From positions 1 to 64,000 of the forward strand of contig NZ_VLOG01000037.1 in assembly GCF_007655305.1 (NCBI RefSeq): 64,000 bases of DNA, read 5' to 3'. Below the pieces are notes generated by a model, which had not been told where the DNA came from, searched no databases, and saw nothing but the letters and a program-made list of their open reading frames with translations. The translations under genes were made by a program, and so were the position numbers. Source of the DNA: Algoriphagus algorifonticola. Its GTDB lineage: Bacteria; Bacteroidota; Bacteroidia; Cytophagales; Cyclobacteriaceae. This document shows positions 6,556 to 31,061 of the stretch, piece after piece. Positions within the stretch are counted from its first letter, which is position 1. Every line of letters starts with the position of its first letter.

Positions 6556-7668
6556 ATGACAGTTCAAATTAACAGCAATTATTTAGAAAAATATGCCGAA
6601 GAGTACGCCGCAATAGTTTGTGAGCGGTATTATTCGGGCAAACAGTTTATCACAGGCCAGGATATTATTCAGTTAACCAGCTCCATTCAGGTTAACTTTT
6701 TCGTGATCAAAAGGCTATTTGAGCTTTGGCAGGAAGAATTAAATAAGCTCAAGAGTAACCCCTATTTTGATTACAGAGATATCAGTGTTCATGAAGCTTT
6801 GACTCAATTTATGAATGTGCTTTCCAGAAGAATTAAAGTGGAAAAGGGTCATCTTCAGCCACTGGTGAAGCATGCTTTAATGCAGTCAGTTCAGGTTGCT
6901 ACAGATCCTGTATCATTTTATCAAAAGGAAATAGACAAAGCACCTTCAGGCAAAATCAATGAATACTTAAAAGAGAACAAGAAGTATTACAAGTGGAATA
7001 CTCAGGTAATTTCTTTTTTGATTGATAAAGCGGGATTCGGTCATGATGAGTCTGCTTACAAAAGAGCAATTGCTGCAAATTATCAGGTGATTTCTGAAAA
7101 TTTGGAATCAGTTAATTTATTGATTGCGACTCTGGGAGATGTTAAGGCTTTTGACCTCGACGCCTATCTGATACAAAATGACACACCAGCTAGTTTGGAA
7201 AAAGAACCCGAGCAAGAGGTGTCAAATAAAGAAGAGAGGTCATTTTTTGATGAAGTAGAGAAAGATACCTCACCGTCTCCAGAAATTCCAGTCAAAACAG
7301 AAATCAAAGAAGAAACTAAAGCGGTTGTCACTATGGAAAGACCAAAACCGTCTAGCACTTCCTCTTCCATCAGTGCATCAGAATTGAAGCATAGATTCTC
7401 AGCAGAAACTTACAGAGGGATGAAAGGTGTGATCGGTGAATTGTCTGAAGGATTGGCAATCAATCAGCGCTTTATGTTTACCAAGGAATTGTTTGACGGG
7501 AATGCAGACCTCTTGAGCCATGCCTTGAAATCTATAGACAACTGCAATTCTTTTGATCAGGCGATTGAATTGATCAATCAGCGGTATGTCGGTGAATTGG
7601 GTTGGGAAGGCTCCAGCGAAGAAGTTCAGGAGTTTCTCCAGCTAGTTTACAGAAGGTTTCTGGATTAA
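6556..7668 (+). CDS. Conserved Bacteroidota protein of unknown function
   Basis: 370 residues. I do not recognise a named family. Residues 1-200 are predicted mostly helical, without signal peptide or membrane segment. Residues ~210-275 are a low-complexity linker rich in E, K, P and S (ending SSTSSSISASEL), so probably disordered. The last ~85 residues form a compact module, with FMFTKELFDGNADLLSHAL and a further helix ending in RRFLD. From memory this C-terminal pattern recurs in other Bacteroidota proteins of unknown function; I could not check this. Divergent from the ferredoxin gene, it ends 7 bp before the converging rodA. A cytoplasmic role is likely. Confidence 0.75.
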   Translation: MTVQINSNYLEKYAEEYAAIVCERYYSGKQFITGQDIIQLTSSIQVNFFVIKRLFELWQEELNKLKSNPYFDYRDISVHEALTQFMNVLSRRIKVEKGHLQPLVKHALMQSVQVATDPVSFYQKEIDKAPSGKINEYLKENKKYYKWNTQVISFLIDKAGFGHDESAYKRAIAANYQVISENLESVNLLIATLGDVKAFDLDAYLIQNDTPASLEKEPEQEVSNKEERSFFDEVEKDTSPSPEIPVKTEIKEETKAVVTMERPKPSSTSSSISASELKHRFSAETYRGMKGVIGELSEGLAINQRFMFTKELFDGNADLLSHALKSIDNCNSFDQAIELINQRYVGELGWEGSSEEVQEFLQLVYRRFLD

Positions 7669-7675
7669 AAATTGA

Positions 7676-8950
7676 TCAATTGATTCTTCCAAGCTGTTGC
7701 GCTCTGGAAGAATCAAGCTTGATAAAAATAAACAGCAATACAGTAAAAGACCAAAGAGAAGAACCACCATAGCTAAAGAAAGGCAATGGGATTCCCACTA
7801 CCGGAAAAAGCCCGATTGTCATAGCAATATTGATCATAAAGTGAAATAGCAGGATAGAAATCACTGAGTATCCGTAGATTCTTGAGAATCTTGTTTTTTG
7901 GCGCTCTGCCATGACTACCAGGCGGTAGAGTAGGGCAAGAAAGAGTAAAATCACCACTAAGCTTCCAATCCATCCAAACTCTTCTCCCAGAGTACAGAAG
8001 ATAAAGTCAGTATGTTGTTCTGGAACGAAGTCAAATTTGGTTTGGGTTCCTTGCAAATACCCTTTTCCCCATAGTCCTCCTGATCCAATAGCAATTTTGG
8101 ACTGAGTTACATTCCATCCTACACCTAAAGGATCCAAATCAGGGTTGAACAGAACCATTATCCGGTTTTGCTGGTGCTCCGGAAGCTTGGACACAACGAA
8201 GTCGATACTGTAACTATAGGCAATTGCTCCAAGGCCAATTAAGGAAAAAGCGACAATTCTCTGCCAGGATTTTTTCCCCAATAAAATCAAAAAGATTACG
8301 AGGGCGGTAATTCCGAATACGATATAAATGTTCTCTTTTATTCCCAGAGAAAGTAGACTCAAAGCAATAAATCCCAAGCCTAAAATATAGTAGCGCTGGG
8401 GGAGTCCCTCTCTATAAAACATGATTAGAAAGGAAAAGTAAACCATCGCAGTACCTGTATCCGGTTGTAAAAGGATTAAAAGCACAGGGAGCAACAGCAC
8501 TCCAAAAGCCACCATTTGGTTTTTTGTCTTGGATAAATCAAAAGTGGGGCGCTCCATAATTTTTGCTAAAGCGAGCGCAGTAGCAAATTTTGCAAATTCC
8601 CCAGGTTGAATTCTAAATGATCCAAACCCTATGGACAGAGTTTGTCCATTCACTTCTTTCCCAAAAAATGGAGTGACTATCAAAATCCCTATGAAAATGA
8701 GGTAAATGATGATGGATAGGTTTTCAAAGAGCCGATGATCTGCCACCATAATCACCGTGATCAATACAATGGCAGTAAAAATCCAAACCAACTGCATCCC
8801 GGAGTTAATGGAGAAATCGAAAATGCTTTTCTCAGCCTGTCCATCATACACCGCTGCATAGATATTGAACCAACCAATCATTACTAAAGCAAAGTATAGT
8901 AATACGGTCACCCAATCGACTCGGTTGATATGGATATCAGACTCCCTCAT
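7676..8950 (-). CDS. rodA: Rod-shape peptidoglycan polymerase RodA
   Basis: 424 residues with about ten membrane segments, a SEDS family member. Conserved stretches include QPDTGTAMVYFSFLI, the loop GSGGLWGKGYLQGTQT and the C-terminal GIPLPFFSYGGSSL. RodA polymerises glycan strands from lipid II during side-wall growth and works with PBP2. It follows mrdA directly, with start 8950 adjoining the mrdA stop, as the last gene of the mreBCD-mrdA-rodA operon. Confidence 0.97.
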   Translation of the reverse strand: MRESDIHINRVDWVTVLLYFALVMIGWFNIYAAVYDGQAEKSIFDFSINSGMQLVWIFTAIVLITVIMVADHRLFENLSIIIYLIFIGILIVTPFFGKEVNGQTLSIGFGSFRIQPGEFAKFATALALAKIMERPTFDLSKTKNQMVAFGVLLLPVLLILLQPDTGTAMVYFSFLIMFYREGLPQRYYILGLGFIALSLLSLGIKENIYIVFGITALVIFLILLGKKSWQRIVAFSLIGLGAIAYSYSIDFVVSKLPEHQQNRIMVLFNPDLDPLGVGWNVTQSKIAIGSGGLWGKGYLQGTQTKFDFVPEQHTDFIFCTLGEEFGWIGSLVVILLFLALLYRLVVMAERQKTRFSRIYGYSVISILLFHFMINIAMTIGLFPVVGIPLPFFSYGGSSLWSFTVLLFIFIKLDSSRAQQLGRIN

Positions 8951-27933: not shown

Positions 27934-29214
27934 ATGAAAAAAGATAATTCAAGAAAACCATTTTTTGACTCCAAAAAATCTGATTCCTCAGATTCCAAAA
28001 AATTCCAAAAAGGCAAGCCGGCTCCTAAGTCCAAGTTCGGTTCAAAAGACTCCGATAAAAAGAGTTTTGGACCAAAAAAAGACTGGAAAAAATCTGACGC
28101 TTCAGCTAAATGGGATAAAGAAGACAAGCCTGGAAAAAGACCAAATTTCAGAAAAGATGAGGGCAAGTTCCCGAATTCCGATCAAGGAATGGAAAAGAAG
28201 CGCTTTTTTGGAGCTAAGCCTGAATCGGGTTCCGAATCAGGTGACTTCAAAAGAGAGCCTTTCAAAAAATCATTCAAGAAAGATTTCCAAGCAAAGCCTG
28301 AAGGAGATAAGCCAAGAGCTTATTTAGGAAGAGGGAAGGATCAAAAGCCTATTTATGGAGAAAAGGAAGTAGGCAGAAGCCCTAAACTTGCGGGAAAAAA
28401 GGGATTCGGGAAAAACCGTCCCAATCGATTTGAAATGGATCAAAACCGTCCAGATTATAATTTCGATGCTTTACCTGCGAAAAAATCTAAGGGGTCCGAA
28501 GGATCTGATTTAATTCGATTGAATAAATACATTGCCAATTCCGGAATTTGCAGTAGGAGAGAGGCTGACGAATTGATCGCTCAGGGATTGGTCACAGTGA
28601 ATAATGAGGTCATCACCGAGCTAGGATATAAAGTAAAGAAAGCAGACCGAGTAGTATATCAAGGAAGAAGAATTAATCCTGAAAAGCCGGTGTACGTTCT
28701 ATTGAATAAGCCTAAGGACTTTATCACTACGACCGAGGATCCAATGGAGCGTAAAACAGTAATGAAGTTGGTGGAAAACGCCTGTGAAGAAAGAATATTT
28801 CCAGTAGGTAGATTGGATAGAAATACTACTGGACTGCTATTATTTACCAATGATGGAGAATTGGCTGCCAAGCTTTCTCACCCTTCCAATGAGATCAAAA
28901 AAATCTATCAGGTAACCTTAGATAAACCTTTGACCAAAAAGGATGAAGAAGCTGTTTTGGAAGGCTTGACATTGGAAGATGGTCCGGCTAATGTAGATGA
29001 CATGCAAGTGCTATCTAAGGATCGTAAAATTCTAGGTCTTGAAATTCACATTGGACGAAACAGAATTGTGAGAAGGATTTTCGCTCACCTTGGCTATGAA
29101 GTGACCGCCTTGGATAGAGTGATGTTTGCCGGATTGGATAAAAAAGACTTAAAACGGGGTCATTACCGTTTCTTATCCGAAAAGGAAGTTATCAAACTGA
29201 AATTCTTTGTTTAA
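27934..29214 (+). CDS. rluB: RNA pseudouridine synthase of the RsuA/RluB family
   Basis: 426 residues. Residues 1-~185 are a low-complexity tail rich in K, S, D, F, P and G (for example SKKSDSSDSKKFQKGKPAPK), probably disordered and RNA-binding. An S4 domain follows (IRLNKYIANSGICSRREADELI). The catalytic domain carries VGRLDRNTTGLLLFTND, with the essential Asp, and ends KEVIKLKFF. Members make a single pseudouridine in 23S or 16S rRNA; RluB is the closest name but RluE/RluF/RsuA cannot be excluded. The charged extension is typical for Bacteroidota. Confidence 0.9.
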   Translation: MKKDNSRKPFFDSKKSDSSDSKKFQKGKPAPKSKFGSKDSDKKSFGPKKDWKKSDASAKWDKEDKPGKRPNFRKDEGKFPNSDQGMEKKRFFGAKPESGSESGDFKREPFKKSFKKDFQAKPEGDKPRAYLGRGKDQKPIYGEKEVGRSPKLAGKKGFGKNRPNRFEMDQNRPDYNFDALPAKKSKGSEGSDLIRLNKYIANSGICSRREADELIAQGLVTVNNEVITELGYKVKKADRVVYQGRRINPEKPVYVLLNKPKDFITTTEDPMERKTVMKLVENACEERIFPVGRLDRNTTGLLLFTNDGELAAKLSHPSNEIKKIYQVTLDKPLTKKDEEAVLEGLTLEDGPANVDDMQVLSKDRKILGLEIHIGRNRIVRRIFAHLGYEVTALDRVMFAGLDKKDLKRGHYRFLSEKEVIKLKFFV

Positions 29215-29221
29215 AATAGAA

Positions 29222-29247
29222 AAGCTCCTTAACCGGGAGCTTTTTTC
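29222..29247 (+). terminator. Terminator after rluB
   Basis: AAAAGCTCC and GGAGCTTTT form a stem around a short loop and end in TTTTTT, 8 bp after the rluB stop. Confidence 0.85.
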
Positions 29248-29401
29248 ATATTTAGCCTTTCAAGGCCTTTTCAATTCAGACGTTGTGAAAAAAATGGAAT
29301 ACTAGGTATAATAGTGGGGTCCATCCGGAAGAGATTGAACATGATGACTTACTACTGTTGGATTCCCTTAGGTCGGTTGGCAGGGGGATAGTATCTTAAA
29401 C

Positions 29402-30132
29402 CAATTGCATCCCGATCCTTCGGGATGGTTTGGATAATAGGGTAGGACAAGGGTTTTAGAAATCTTCCCTTTGGAAGATTTTAACCTTGGGCCAGCATGC
29501 AGGGCGGGCAAATTCCACCCAGCCCATAGCAATGATTTGACCACGCTGAGGCGGGGGGGCAAATTCCACTCAGTCGCCACAATCATTTGACTACACTCAG
29601 TGGGGATATTGTAAAAAGACGGTGAAGCCGTCGAACCTTTCAATAGCCCTAGGTGAAACCTAGGGAATGAAAACGATAAATAATTTAGTTTTGGCAACCC
29701 TGAAAGGGTTGAACGATAGGTGTTCTATTTGCAAATTCTAAAAAATGAAATCAATACAAGCCTCAAAAAATTGACCCATCAAGCGTCATTTTAGCTTTAC
29801 CAGATTGTAGGTAAGGAAATATACGTTTACACTAATGTTTATTCTATGTTCAAAGGGGGTGGGTTGAAAATAACTTCTCCATATTGTTCGACCCCTTCAG
29901 GGTCTGTAAGTACCAAATAAATTGTATTACCCTGTAACCATGGGTTGCACCCATGGCTATTCAAAGGTTGGACCCCTCTCGGGGTCATTATCATTGTTCC
30001 GGAGGAATGGATAAAAGACGGTGAAGCCGTCTACTTCTGAAAAGCCTTCGGCCTTCCTCTACCGGCTGGTCGGCGGAACCGGCGGAAAAATAAATTCTTG
30101 TTGGATTGAATTTGACAACCCTGAAAGAGTTA
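29402..30132. repeat. Mosaic of short palindromic hairpins, mostly with a GAA loop
   Basis: A gene-free stretch packed with inverted repeats. Plus-strand stem-GAA-stem units: GACGGT/GCCGTC at 29618-29632 and again at 30017-30031, CCCTAGGT/ACCTAGGG at 29647-29665, CAACCCT/AGGGTTG at 29695-29711, and a decayed copy at 30116-30132. Minus-strand GAA units: GACCCT/GGGGTC at 29890-29904 and AAGGCC/GGCTTT at 30041-30055. Related units: CCATGGGT-TGC-ACCCATGG at 29938-29956, GACCCC-TCTC-GGGGTC at 29971-29986, AATCTTCC-CTTT-GGAAGATT at 29461-29480, and ATCCCGA/TCGGGAT at 29409-29426. Open frames across it have no protein-like composition. Confidence 0.75.
29506..29607. repeat. Two tandem copies of a ~51-bp unit
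   Basis: Copies start with GGGCAAATTCCAC at 29506 and 29557, exactly 51 bp apart. Both contain ATnATTTGAC and end in a G run. By eye most positions agree, with scattered substitutions. It is part of the palindrome mosaic and not coding. Confidence 0.65.
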
Positions 30133-30260
30133 AACTTTGGAAATGGAATTACTCCCGACAGTTGTACAGGGTTTTAGGAGGTATAAAACCGTTTTGTTCC
30201 AGAGAGCTTGCAGAATACGCTTTGTCCATAGCATGCATTCCAAACATAGGCGAATGGGGG

Positions 30261-30298
30261 CATAGTTTGACAAGGACCGCACCATTCCGGAAAAAATC
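30261..30298 (-). pseudogene. Probable fragment of a decayed thioredoxin gene
   Basis: On the minus strand 30284-30261 encodes WCGPCQTM, identical to the active site of the intact thioredoxin at 30756-31061. The five nucleotide differences from that gene are all at third codon positions. Just upstream, GATTTTTTC then CGGAATGG reads DFF-xEW if one base was lost, as in a thioredoxin VDFFAEWCGPC. No full frame survives. A possible 3' end of the same gene, encoding IEKALKG-stop, lies at 29252-29275 (intact gene: LEKTLKGFT). The mosaic repeat lies between them. Confidence 0.4.
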
Positions 30299-30499
30299 GG
30301 GTTTCGGGACTAATGTAGATCTGATGCTTCTCTATTCCGGAAATATTGGGATTAAAACTCCTTTTTCTGGGAGGAAATTCAATCAAAAAAGGCTCAATAT
30401 TCGATTCTATTCCTTCTTGAACCAGACACAAAATCAGAACTATTTTTTATCACAAGTGTTAAATAGTAGTAAGAGTAAACTTTTAAACATACAACCATT

Positions 30500-30697
30500 A
30501 TGGAAATTACTAGAAAAGCTAAAGAAGAATTGGAAAATAGAATCGATAGAATTGAAGAGTTTATCGGCAAAAAAGGATTGGGATCAAACTACCTACAAAA
30601 GGCAAAAAAAACGCAAAGGGATATCAATTTGGCTTTGGCAGTAGGAGGAGTGATTATGATTGCCGGGTTAATACTATGGATGAAAAGTAAAGATTAA
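30500..30697 (+). CDS. Small membrane protein, unknown
   Basis: 65 residues. Residues 1-42 are charged and helical (MEITRKAKEELENRIDRIEEF, then KKGLGSNYLQKAKKTQ). A single membrane helix follows (INLALAVGGVIMIAGLILWM) with a positive tail KSKD. The clean N-out or N-in anchor layout and coding-like composition support a real gene, though it borders the repeat mosaic. I do not recognise the family. It converges on the thioredoxin gene. Confidence 0.55.
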   Translation: MEITRKAKEELENRIDRIEEFIGKKGLGSNYLQKAKKTQRDINLALAVGGVIMIAGLILWMKSKD

Positions 30698-30755
30698 TAG
30701 GCCATTTTTTCTTAACATTCATTTACCGGACGCTAGCCTATAAATAGAGTCTTTT

Positions 30756-31061
30756 TTAAGTAAAACCTTTCAAGGTCTTTTCCAAATCTCTTTTAGTAAT
30801 AATCCCCCCCTTTCTCCAAAGAATTTTACCTCGTTTGAAAAGAATGTAATGAGGAATAGACCGCACGGCAAATTGCTGTGCAAGCTGAGGATATTTATCA
30901 ACGTTCAGTTTTAAAAGCTTTATTTTCCCGTCGAGCTCTTCGAGAACCTCGGAAATAATTGGATCCATGGTTTGGCATGGGCCACACCAATCCGCGTAAA
31001 AATCCACTAAAATGGCATCTTGGCTTTTGCTGAGTTTATCCTTAATCGATTCCTTAGGCAT
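30756..31061 (-). CDS. trxA: Thioredoxin
   Basis: 101 residues, cytoplasmic. The redox motif is ADWCGPCQTMDPI, followed by LNVDKYPQLAQQFAVRSIPHYILFKRG with the conserved cis-proline (SIPH), then EKTLKGFT. It is a general disulfide reductase. The gene stands alone between a small membrane protein and the OmpH genes. A fragment resembling its active site is found at 30261-30298. trxA is a family-level name; several thioredoxins are likely in this genome. Confidence 0.93.
   Translation of the reverse strand: MPKESIKDKLSKSQDAILVDFYADWCGPCQTMDPIISEVLEELDGKIKLLKLNVDKYPQLAQQFAVRSIPHYILFKRGKILWRKGGIITKRDLEKTLKGFT

Follow-up and report, generated by a model that had tools for sequence, protein, structure and literature searches.

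Hairpin doublets in Algoriphagus algorifonticola are probably non-autonomous REP-like elements spread by a subclass 1.2-type transposase

What are the small palindromes that crowd the gap between two convergent genes of Algoriphagus algorifonticola, and how did they come to be there? The gap separates a pseudouridine synthase gene at 27934-29214 from a thioredoxin gene at 30756-31061. It lies in the 64,000-nt stretch of DNA analysed here (the window), which belongs to contig C31; the genome measures 4.45 Mb. An initial annotation had described a hairpin cluster at 29402-30132, and the cluster is real. Counting perfect hairpins with a stem of at least 5 pairs, three or more GC in the arm and a loop of 3-4 nt, we find 6; the 2000 Markov shuffles average 0.63 and never attain that number. 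The GAA/TTC triloops number 2, against 0.0135 in Markov shuffles. The hairpin GACGGT-GAA-GCCGTC, which contains a G.T pair, occurs twice (29618-29632 and 30017-30031), and two imperfect hairpins at 29890-29904 and 30116-30131, recognised by eye and from folds, bring the total to ten. GAA was said to be the loop in most of them; GAA/TTC is indeed the loop or the loop core in six of the ten, but the remaining four have TCCT, CTTT, TGC and TCTC. The gap itself is gene-free, as described, for the 1285 bp from the stop at 29214 to a 65-aa ORF at 30500, although mechanical ORFs of 85-207 aa overlap it; the one of these that we tested (30021-30644) has no Pfam match.

Most of the block resolves into one repeated module. 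The segment 29615-30136 holds three copies of a composite repeat of about 100 nt, in which hairpin H2 is followed by the conserved spacer AACYTYTSAATAR, hairpin H1 by about 30 nt of variable sequence, and hairpin H3 by an AAC tag. We defined this unit, which we call a half-unit, by aligning first 11 and then 7 copies from contigs C33 and C26 and the window, the four that were dropped carrying inserts, and we built a covariance model, R1, from the 7 copies. Half-units are typed on H3 as subtype A (CAACCC-like) or subtype B (CGACCC-like). The features in the window are as follows.

29615-29715, plus strand: half-unit of subtype A (R1 99.3 bits; single-stranded DNA fold z -5.7; one of the 7 training copies)
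29618-29632, plus strand: H2 of the first half-unit, GACGGT-GAA-GCCGTC
29633-29646, plus strand: tag or spacer of the first half-unit, GAACCTTTCAATAG
29647-29665, plus strand: H1 of the first half-unit, CCCTAGGT-GAA-ACCTAGGG, followed by the linker and then H3
29695-29711, plus strand: H3 of the first half-unit, CAACCCT-GAA-AGGGTTG
29712-29714, plus strand: AAC tag of the first half-unit
29716-29884, no strand: 169-nt stretch between half-units, a tail-to-tail junction, the position held by tnpA on contig C33
29885-29989, minus strand: half-unit of subtype B (R1 92.7 bits; single-stranded DNA fold z -4.0; one of the 7 training copies)
29890-29904, minus strand: H3 of the B half-unit, imperfect
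29938-29956, minus strand: H1 of the B half-unit, CCATGGGT-GCA-ACCCATGG on the minus strand
29957-29970, minus strand: spacer of the B half-unit
29971-29986, minus strand: H2 of the B half-unit, GACCCC-GAGA-GGGGTC on the minus strand
29990-30013, no strand: 24-nt centre of the head-to-head doublet made by the minus-strand B half and the plus-strand A half after it, from the spacing of R1 matches
30014-30136, plus strand: degenerate half-unit, subtype A by eye (R1 42.5 bits, E 1.8e-5; outside the training set)
30017-30031, plus strand: H2 of the degenerate half-unit, GACGGT-GAA-GCCGTC
30116-30131, plus strand: H3 of the degenerate half-unit, imperfect; its H1 region carries an insert

The degenerate half-unit folds weakly (z -1.6, with 13 of 200 shuffles as good). 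Identical units had been noticed 399 bp and 421 bp apart, both distances being correct, and they are the H2 and H3 hairpins of the first and third copies of the module. The pairs are thus two copies of one three-hairpin module, and the suggested partial duplication of the block is without support. A tblastn search of the window with the C33 protein (E<=10) finds no match to a tnpA remnant in 29716-29884. The order A, B, A, in which the third copy is typed by eye, fits the alternation of subtypes seen elsewhere, and the block probably represents a doublet and a half of a non-autonomous REP/BIME-like element.

The left part of the block, 29402-29614, lies outside the unit, and the hairpins at 29408-29427 and 29460-29481 belong to no copy of the element. 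The second of these sits in another repeat common to contig C43 (91% over 29432-29524). This separate dispersed repeat, 29432-29565 (AACCTTGGGCCAGCATGCAGGGCGGG..), has matches of 91% over 93 nt at C43:28654 and of 83% at C25:18441, and shorter stretches of it occur at C60 and at C40, where a hairpin is inserted nearby.

The element is not confined to this site, as the initial annotation had anticipated. In the genome, R1 has 24 matches at E<=0.01, which are spread over 11 contigs, and 27 matches at E<=0.1; it also matches in 63 of 72 congeneric genomes. The copies are palindromic and dispersed, as in REP/RAYT systems, their placement relative to genes having been checked at the window and at C33. 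Pairs of half-units follow a heterodimer order. Among the head-to-head pairs within 400 nt (n=51), 46 are AB/BA, 2 are BB, 1 is AA and 2 are untyped, with gaps outside the window of 17-126 nt; among the tail-to-tail pairs (n=20), 19 are BA/AB and 1 is untyped. Only 7 neighbours have the same orientation. Inverted doublets of two alternating subtypes are what characterises BIMEs and REPINs. The sister genome G027 has regular arrays of alternating orientation at L285:1854-3382 (11 half-units, alternating also in subtype) and L286:1823-2797 (6 half-units), and none of the listed relatives of the C33 TnpA lies at either array. In several genomes the H1 loops (L028:1691-1811, L134, L285 and others) often contain a palindromic insert of roughly 24-31 nt.

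A REP-associated transposase had been named as something to look for, and we find a Y1 gene of the IS200/REP superfamily beside the same units on contig C33. This tnpA (1895-2341) is intact, encodes a Y1/HUH protein of 148 aa, and is flanked by R1 matches at 1516-1616, 1691-1811, 2363-2479 and 2509-2630, the arrangement of repeats around a Y1 HUH gene by which REP/RAYT systems are recognised. The protein matches PF01797 (1.1e-22) and passes the IS200 NCBIfam model NF033573 (65.2 bits, cut-off 55); it fails the class 2 TnpAREP model NF047646 (21.4 bits, cut-off 80), and its motif reads YIKNQEAHH, not the Y..NP of class 2. Its sequence matches in the PDB are to IS transposases, the best being 2fyx (E 4.6e-5), with ISHp608 2a6m also found. 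The C33 type is single copy in this genome, where the other listed relatives are 37-38% identical, and its best-scoring named relative among the matches listed is from Algoriphagus boritolerans (82% identity, full length). The genome has seven PF01797 genes (E<=0.001), and the proteins on C33, C4 (two) and C9 combine HUH with Y---Q--HH. The C4 and C9 genes sit amid hairpin repeats of their own; a C9 probe has 11 matches and a C4 probe 10, across contigs and with the gene loci counted. The C4 family includes GTCGC-TAC-GCGAC, ATGCC-GTA-GGCAT and CCAGAGAT-TAAA-ATCTCTGG, and two adjacent, closely similar C4 tnpA copies (L029:6206-6667 and 7487-7948) lie within it. A DDE transposase gene (PF13701, L028:9-1331) adjoins the C33 tnpA array, and the end of that gene recurs at the start of contig C26 (L034:101), near another half-unit.

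Across the genus, the 22 of 72 genomes with a C33-type TnpA (at least 60% identity) have a median of 18.5 R1 matches against 4.5 in the other 50, with a Mann-Whitney p of 1.6e-5 that is only indicative because the genomes are related to each other; G059, with a 79-aa piece of TnpA at a contig end, is left out of the 22, and including it gives p 4.4e-6. Among good-quality genomes (18 vs 32) the medians are 18.5 and 5.5, with a p of 0.005 to be read in the same way. A strict coupling of TnpA type and repeat is ruled out by three genomes: in G067 (31 R1 matches) a search at E<=0.001 finds no relative of the C33 transposase, in G006 (18 matches) the only relative is a weak one, and in G027 (32 matches) all are distant. 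These populations would have to be orphans or be served by another enzyme.

The signature Y---Q--HH is that of TnpAY1 subclass 1.2, as PMC6006769 describes it. The C33 protein resembles this subclass also in having HUH, in being short and of low copy number, and in coming from the Bacteroidota. According to the same source (2018), the subclass is mostly from Cyanobacteria and Bacteroidetes and generally lacks typical IS200 terminal structures, and its abstract states that no subclass apart from those flanked by REPs has a REP association. Among the papers listed in the literature that we searched, which takes in passages of PMC6006769 and few subscription papers, none ties subclass 1.2 genes to hairpin repeats; further sources drawn on are PMC3733652, PMC11194056, PMC7709200, PMC12306157 and PMC2817692. 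Unlike the subclass as published in PMC6006769, most of the genes examined here are flanked by hairpin arrays, and relatives occur in further phyla.

We examined this in 82 loci, namely the best 79 of at least 512 relatives in named genomes together with C33, one C4 gene and C9. The genes in this set come from many phyla, and 79 of the 82 proteins have Y---Q--HH; of the three without it, two are truncated frames. Hairpins (loops 3-5) are dense in the intergenic DNA beside these mostly best-scoring genes, with 318 in 43.0 kb within 600 nt and 82 in 50.2 kb beyond 1.5 kb, that is, 7.40 vs 1.63 per kb or 4.5x; among the 65 loci of the set with enough intergenic DNA, 57 are denser near the gene, 7 far from it, and 1 is a tie (p 3.8e-11). 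They form arrays, not classical IS ends. Perfect triloop hairpins (stem of at least 6) within 600 nt of these best 79 and three added genes are GNA in 187 cases and other in 100, in 94.8 kb, against 34 GNA and 284 other in 1896 kb of shuffles. Beyond 1.5 kb of the same genes there are 21 GNA and 80 other in 332 kb, and in the far intergenic part 10 GNA and 6 other in 23.6 kb, so that 10 of its 16 triloops are GNA. The pair closing the GNA loop is C-G or T-A in 98% of cases in this set. At least one GNA hairpin (stem of at least 6) is present in 59 of the 82 mostly best-scoring loci, and its frequency by identity to C33 (80 of these loci) is 16/16 at 60% or more, then 10/14, 11/14 and 14/22, and 7/14 below 42%.

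While this first set suggested a universal GNA loop, a second sample contradicts it. That sample comprises 30 loci that are the top matches of the phylum to the IS200 model, of which 22 carry the signature. These 22 subclass 1.2 loci have 101 hairpins in 25.3 kb, 19 of them GNA and 82 with other loops (3-5 nt), and GNA is found in only 9 of the 22. Class 2 RAYT controls (30 loci) have 14 GNA and 62 other in 35.0 kb, with GNA in 11 of 30; four IS200-type loci have 0 GNA and 7 other, and four unclassified loci have 4 of each. A tree of 102 proteins (stem of at least 5, loops 3-4) has GNA as the top loop in 62, another loop in 24 and none in 16. Loop class is only mildly clustered on it (26 changes, with 7 of 500 shuffles as low and an unsettled bootstrap), and loci topped by GNA are on both sides of the midpoint root. 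GNA triloops are commonest in the closest relatives and are not universal.

One alternative is that tnpA and its flanking hairpins are an ordinary IS200/IS605-type element whose decayed ends, as internal-deletion MITEs, are the dispersed units. Such MITE-like derivatives of IS200/IS605 are named PATEs. The transposase family and the single-stranded DNA hairpins near the gene are shared with these elements, the C33 protein passes the IS200 model, and tnpA lies between B(+) and A(-) halves, in the tail-to-tail junction, at L028 and L134 (the order is alike at L133, where the upstream unit is untyped), so that B-tnpA-A could be the parent. However, the ends of IS200/IS605 are read on one strand, whereas the hairpins here are inverted around the gene: in the 82 loci, mostly the best 79 of at least 512, the GNA hairpins upstream are 63 on the gene strand and 23 on the opposite one, and those downstream 25 and 76. 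There are also several per side, and they are scattered without the gene; the C33 type is single copy while half-units are on 11 contigs, and multi-unit arrays occur at L285 and L286, places without a listed tnpA. We regard this alternative as unlikely.

The initial annotation had taken the variation of the stems as favouring a selected shape over a copied sequence. In the 7 training copies, 139 of 140 stem cells are paired and 8 of 20 pairs are altered on both sides. In 143 distinct copies, 97.5% of 2816 stem cells are paired, and changes on both sides number 452, against a shuffled mean of 142.8 and at most 62 with partners slid; these values come from an alignment fitted to the structure, made from the best 150 of 173 matches from 47 loci. 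Hairpin shape is therefore kept while stem letters vary, yet the unit is a copied sequence with fixed tags, and only parts of the stems vary: H1 is variable in mid-stem and nearly fixed at base and apex, and H2 is variable mainly in its inner four pairs. The unpaired tags are kept at 97-100% (AAC after H2), 98-100% (AATA before H1) and 97-99% (AAC after H3). On the model strand, G.T mismatches are 84 vs 22 for A.C, mainly from one column of 46, and H3 has no excess (9 vs 10). The H2 loops (n=143) are GAA in 85, GTA in 12, AAA in 9 and GGA in 6, and the H1 loops (n=143) GAA in 68, GCA in 38 and GGA in 8. GAA is thus the commonest loop among R1 copies, to be compared with the series of GNA triloops, which are described as exceptionally stable minihairpins of DNA, with GAA melting some 6 degrees higher than GTA (according to PMC6479982, citing Yoshizawa 1997).

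The pairing could also be kept by mutation, with template switching between the arms of a palindrome copying changes from arm to arm. In favour of this, the stems pair almost perfectly and several of their variants turn up repeatedly as discrete types; quasi-palindrome correction is an established process. Template switching leaves the loops, the unpaired tags, the A/B order and the clustering at tnpA unexplained, however, and could act alongside selection; as the explanation of the pairing we find it improbable.

The history of the site is that of a variable gap. Among 29 other loci fetched at the pseudouridine synthase gene, which reach at most 1.5 kb downstream (L258 less), none has R1 at the corresponding place, and only the locus of this genome does. 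Both genes are in range in 20 of these loci, and there the distance between the convergent stops is 22-44 bp in 16 and 69-465 bp in 4, against 1.5 kb in this genome; in 9 loci the thioredoxin gene is out of range. At this site the sister genome G027 carries 4343 bp of different DNA that lacks R1, so that a gain in this genome and a loss in G027 are both possible; homology resumes at window position 30265. The 29215-30755 gap resembles an insertion hot spot, with 4343 bp in G027 (including a large gene), 2207 bp in G071 and 2070 bp in G045. The part of the insert from 30265 onward is common to G027 only, and G071 and G045 match just the left edge. On the minus strand, 30266-30300 reads, in antisense, PEWCGPCQTMPP, a thioredoxin active-site motif about 0.7 kb from the motif in the real gene, which may be a piece of a duplicated gene or may have arisen by chance. 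Elsewhere, a doublet on C36 is common to this genome and G027, and an array on C62 has 3 half-units here vs 6 in G027. In an empty-site comparison of the C36 and C62 copies (8 genomes), the seven others match the flanks only and give no precise insertion point. Near the C36 doublet, L290:800-885 matches dozens of places in G027 and few in other genomes, and is another high-copy repeat.

That the hairpins are transcribed, as terminators or regulatory RNA between the convergent genes, is very improbable: terminator-like sites number 4 where 1.8 would be expected, and two coincide with H2 hairpins, but a terminator-like hairpin at 29220-29244 (minus) already separates the block from the upstream gene, promoter-like sites are at the shuffled level (4 vs 3.8), and relatives that have the same genes lack the element here. 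An RNA gene is likewise rejected, Rfam (29000-30900, E<=1) giving only two sub-threshold matches, at 29215-29278 and 29190-29249, outside the repeats, and the RNA role that had been offered for the hairpins is without support.

We conclude that these are probably non-autonomous REP-like elements, recognised as single-strand hairpins and spread by a subclass 1.2-type transposase. They resemble class 2 REP/RAYT systems, REPtrons, BIMEs and REPINs in being many short extragenic palindromes with arrays and inverted doublets of two subtypes and, as in class 2 REPtrons, they cluster at a single-copy Y1 HUH gene. Unlike class 2 REPs, they have no GT[AG]G foot (the H1 foot is AATA[G/A], with AAC after H2 and H3) and have three hairpins per half-unit, and they go with a transposase of the class 1 (subclass 1.2) kind. 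Because the foot tetranucleotide and the protein class fail the class 2 tests, the system works like a REP system but outside that class. The REP-like structures of subclass 2.6 (Bacteroidetes) are similarly atypical and without GT[AG]G; subclass 2.6 proteins, however, carry YIH[QN]NP in the table of PMC6006769, as against YIKNQEAHH in the C33 protein.

The hairpins, most of which have GNA loops, would fold on a strand that has become single, as may happen behind a fork. The transposase would bind there, recognising the loop, the shape of the stem and an unpaired tag on the folded strand, and would cut and rejoin it, so that units spread in trans. The stems would drift through compensatory change because recognition would need pairing more than the letters of the stem, and selection would then be the cause of the paired changes. 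For group 3 REPs in vitro, a loop base is essential and stem changes are tolerated more than mismatches, as reported in the part of PMC8266576 that concerns them, and by analogy a subclass 1.2 protein may read loop, pairing and tags on one strand, a claim limited by the orphan copies in G067 and G027 and by the non-GNA loops in other 1.2 lineages. More tentatively, and with a little less than even confidence, we propose that subclass 1.2 proteins are a separate branch of REP transposases in many phyla, whose substrates would be read by an extra-stable d(GNA) or a lineage-specific loop, a paired shape and short tags, not by stem sequence, so that stems may drift freely in each lineage while the enzyme would still fit.

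A transposase class described as being without partner DNA thereby gains a probable partner, and a substrate is offered for HUH proteins whose role was open. The hundreds of copies are a natural covariation record of what the enzyme may need, namely loop, pairing and tags, and they make shape-based recognition of single-strand DNA directly testable. The BIME-like heterodimer order is extended beyond class 2 RAYTs.
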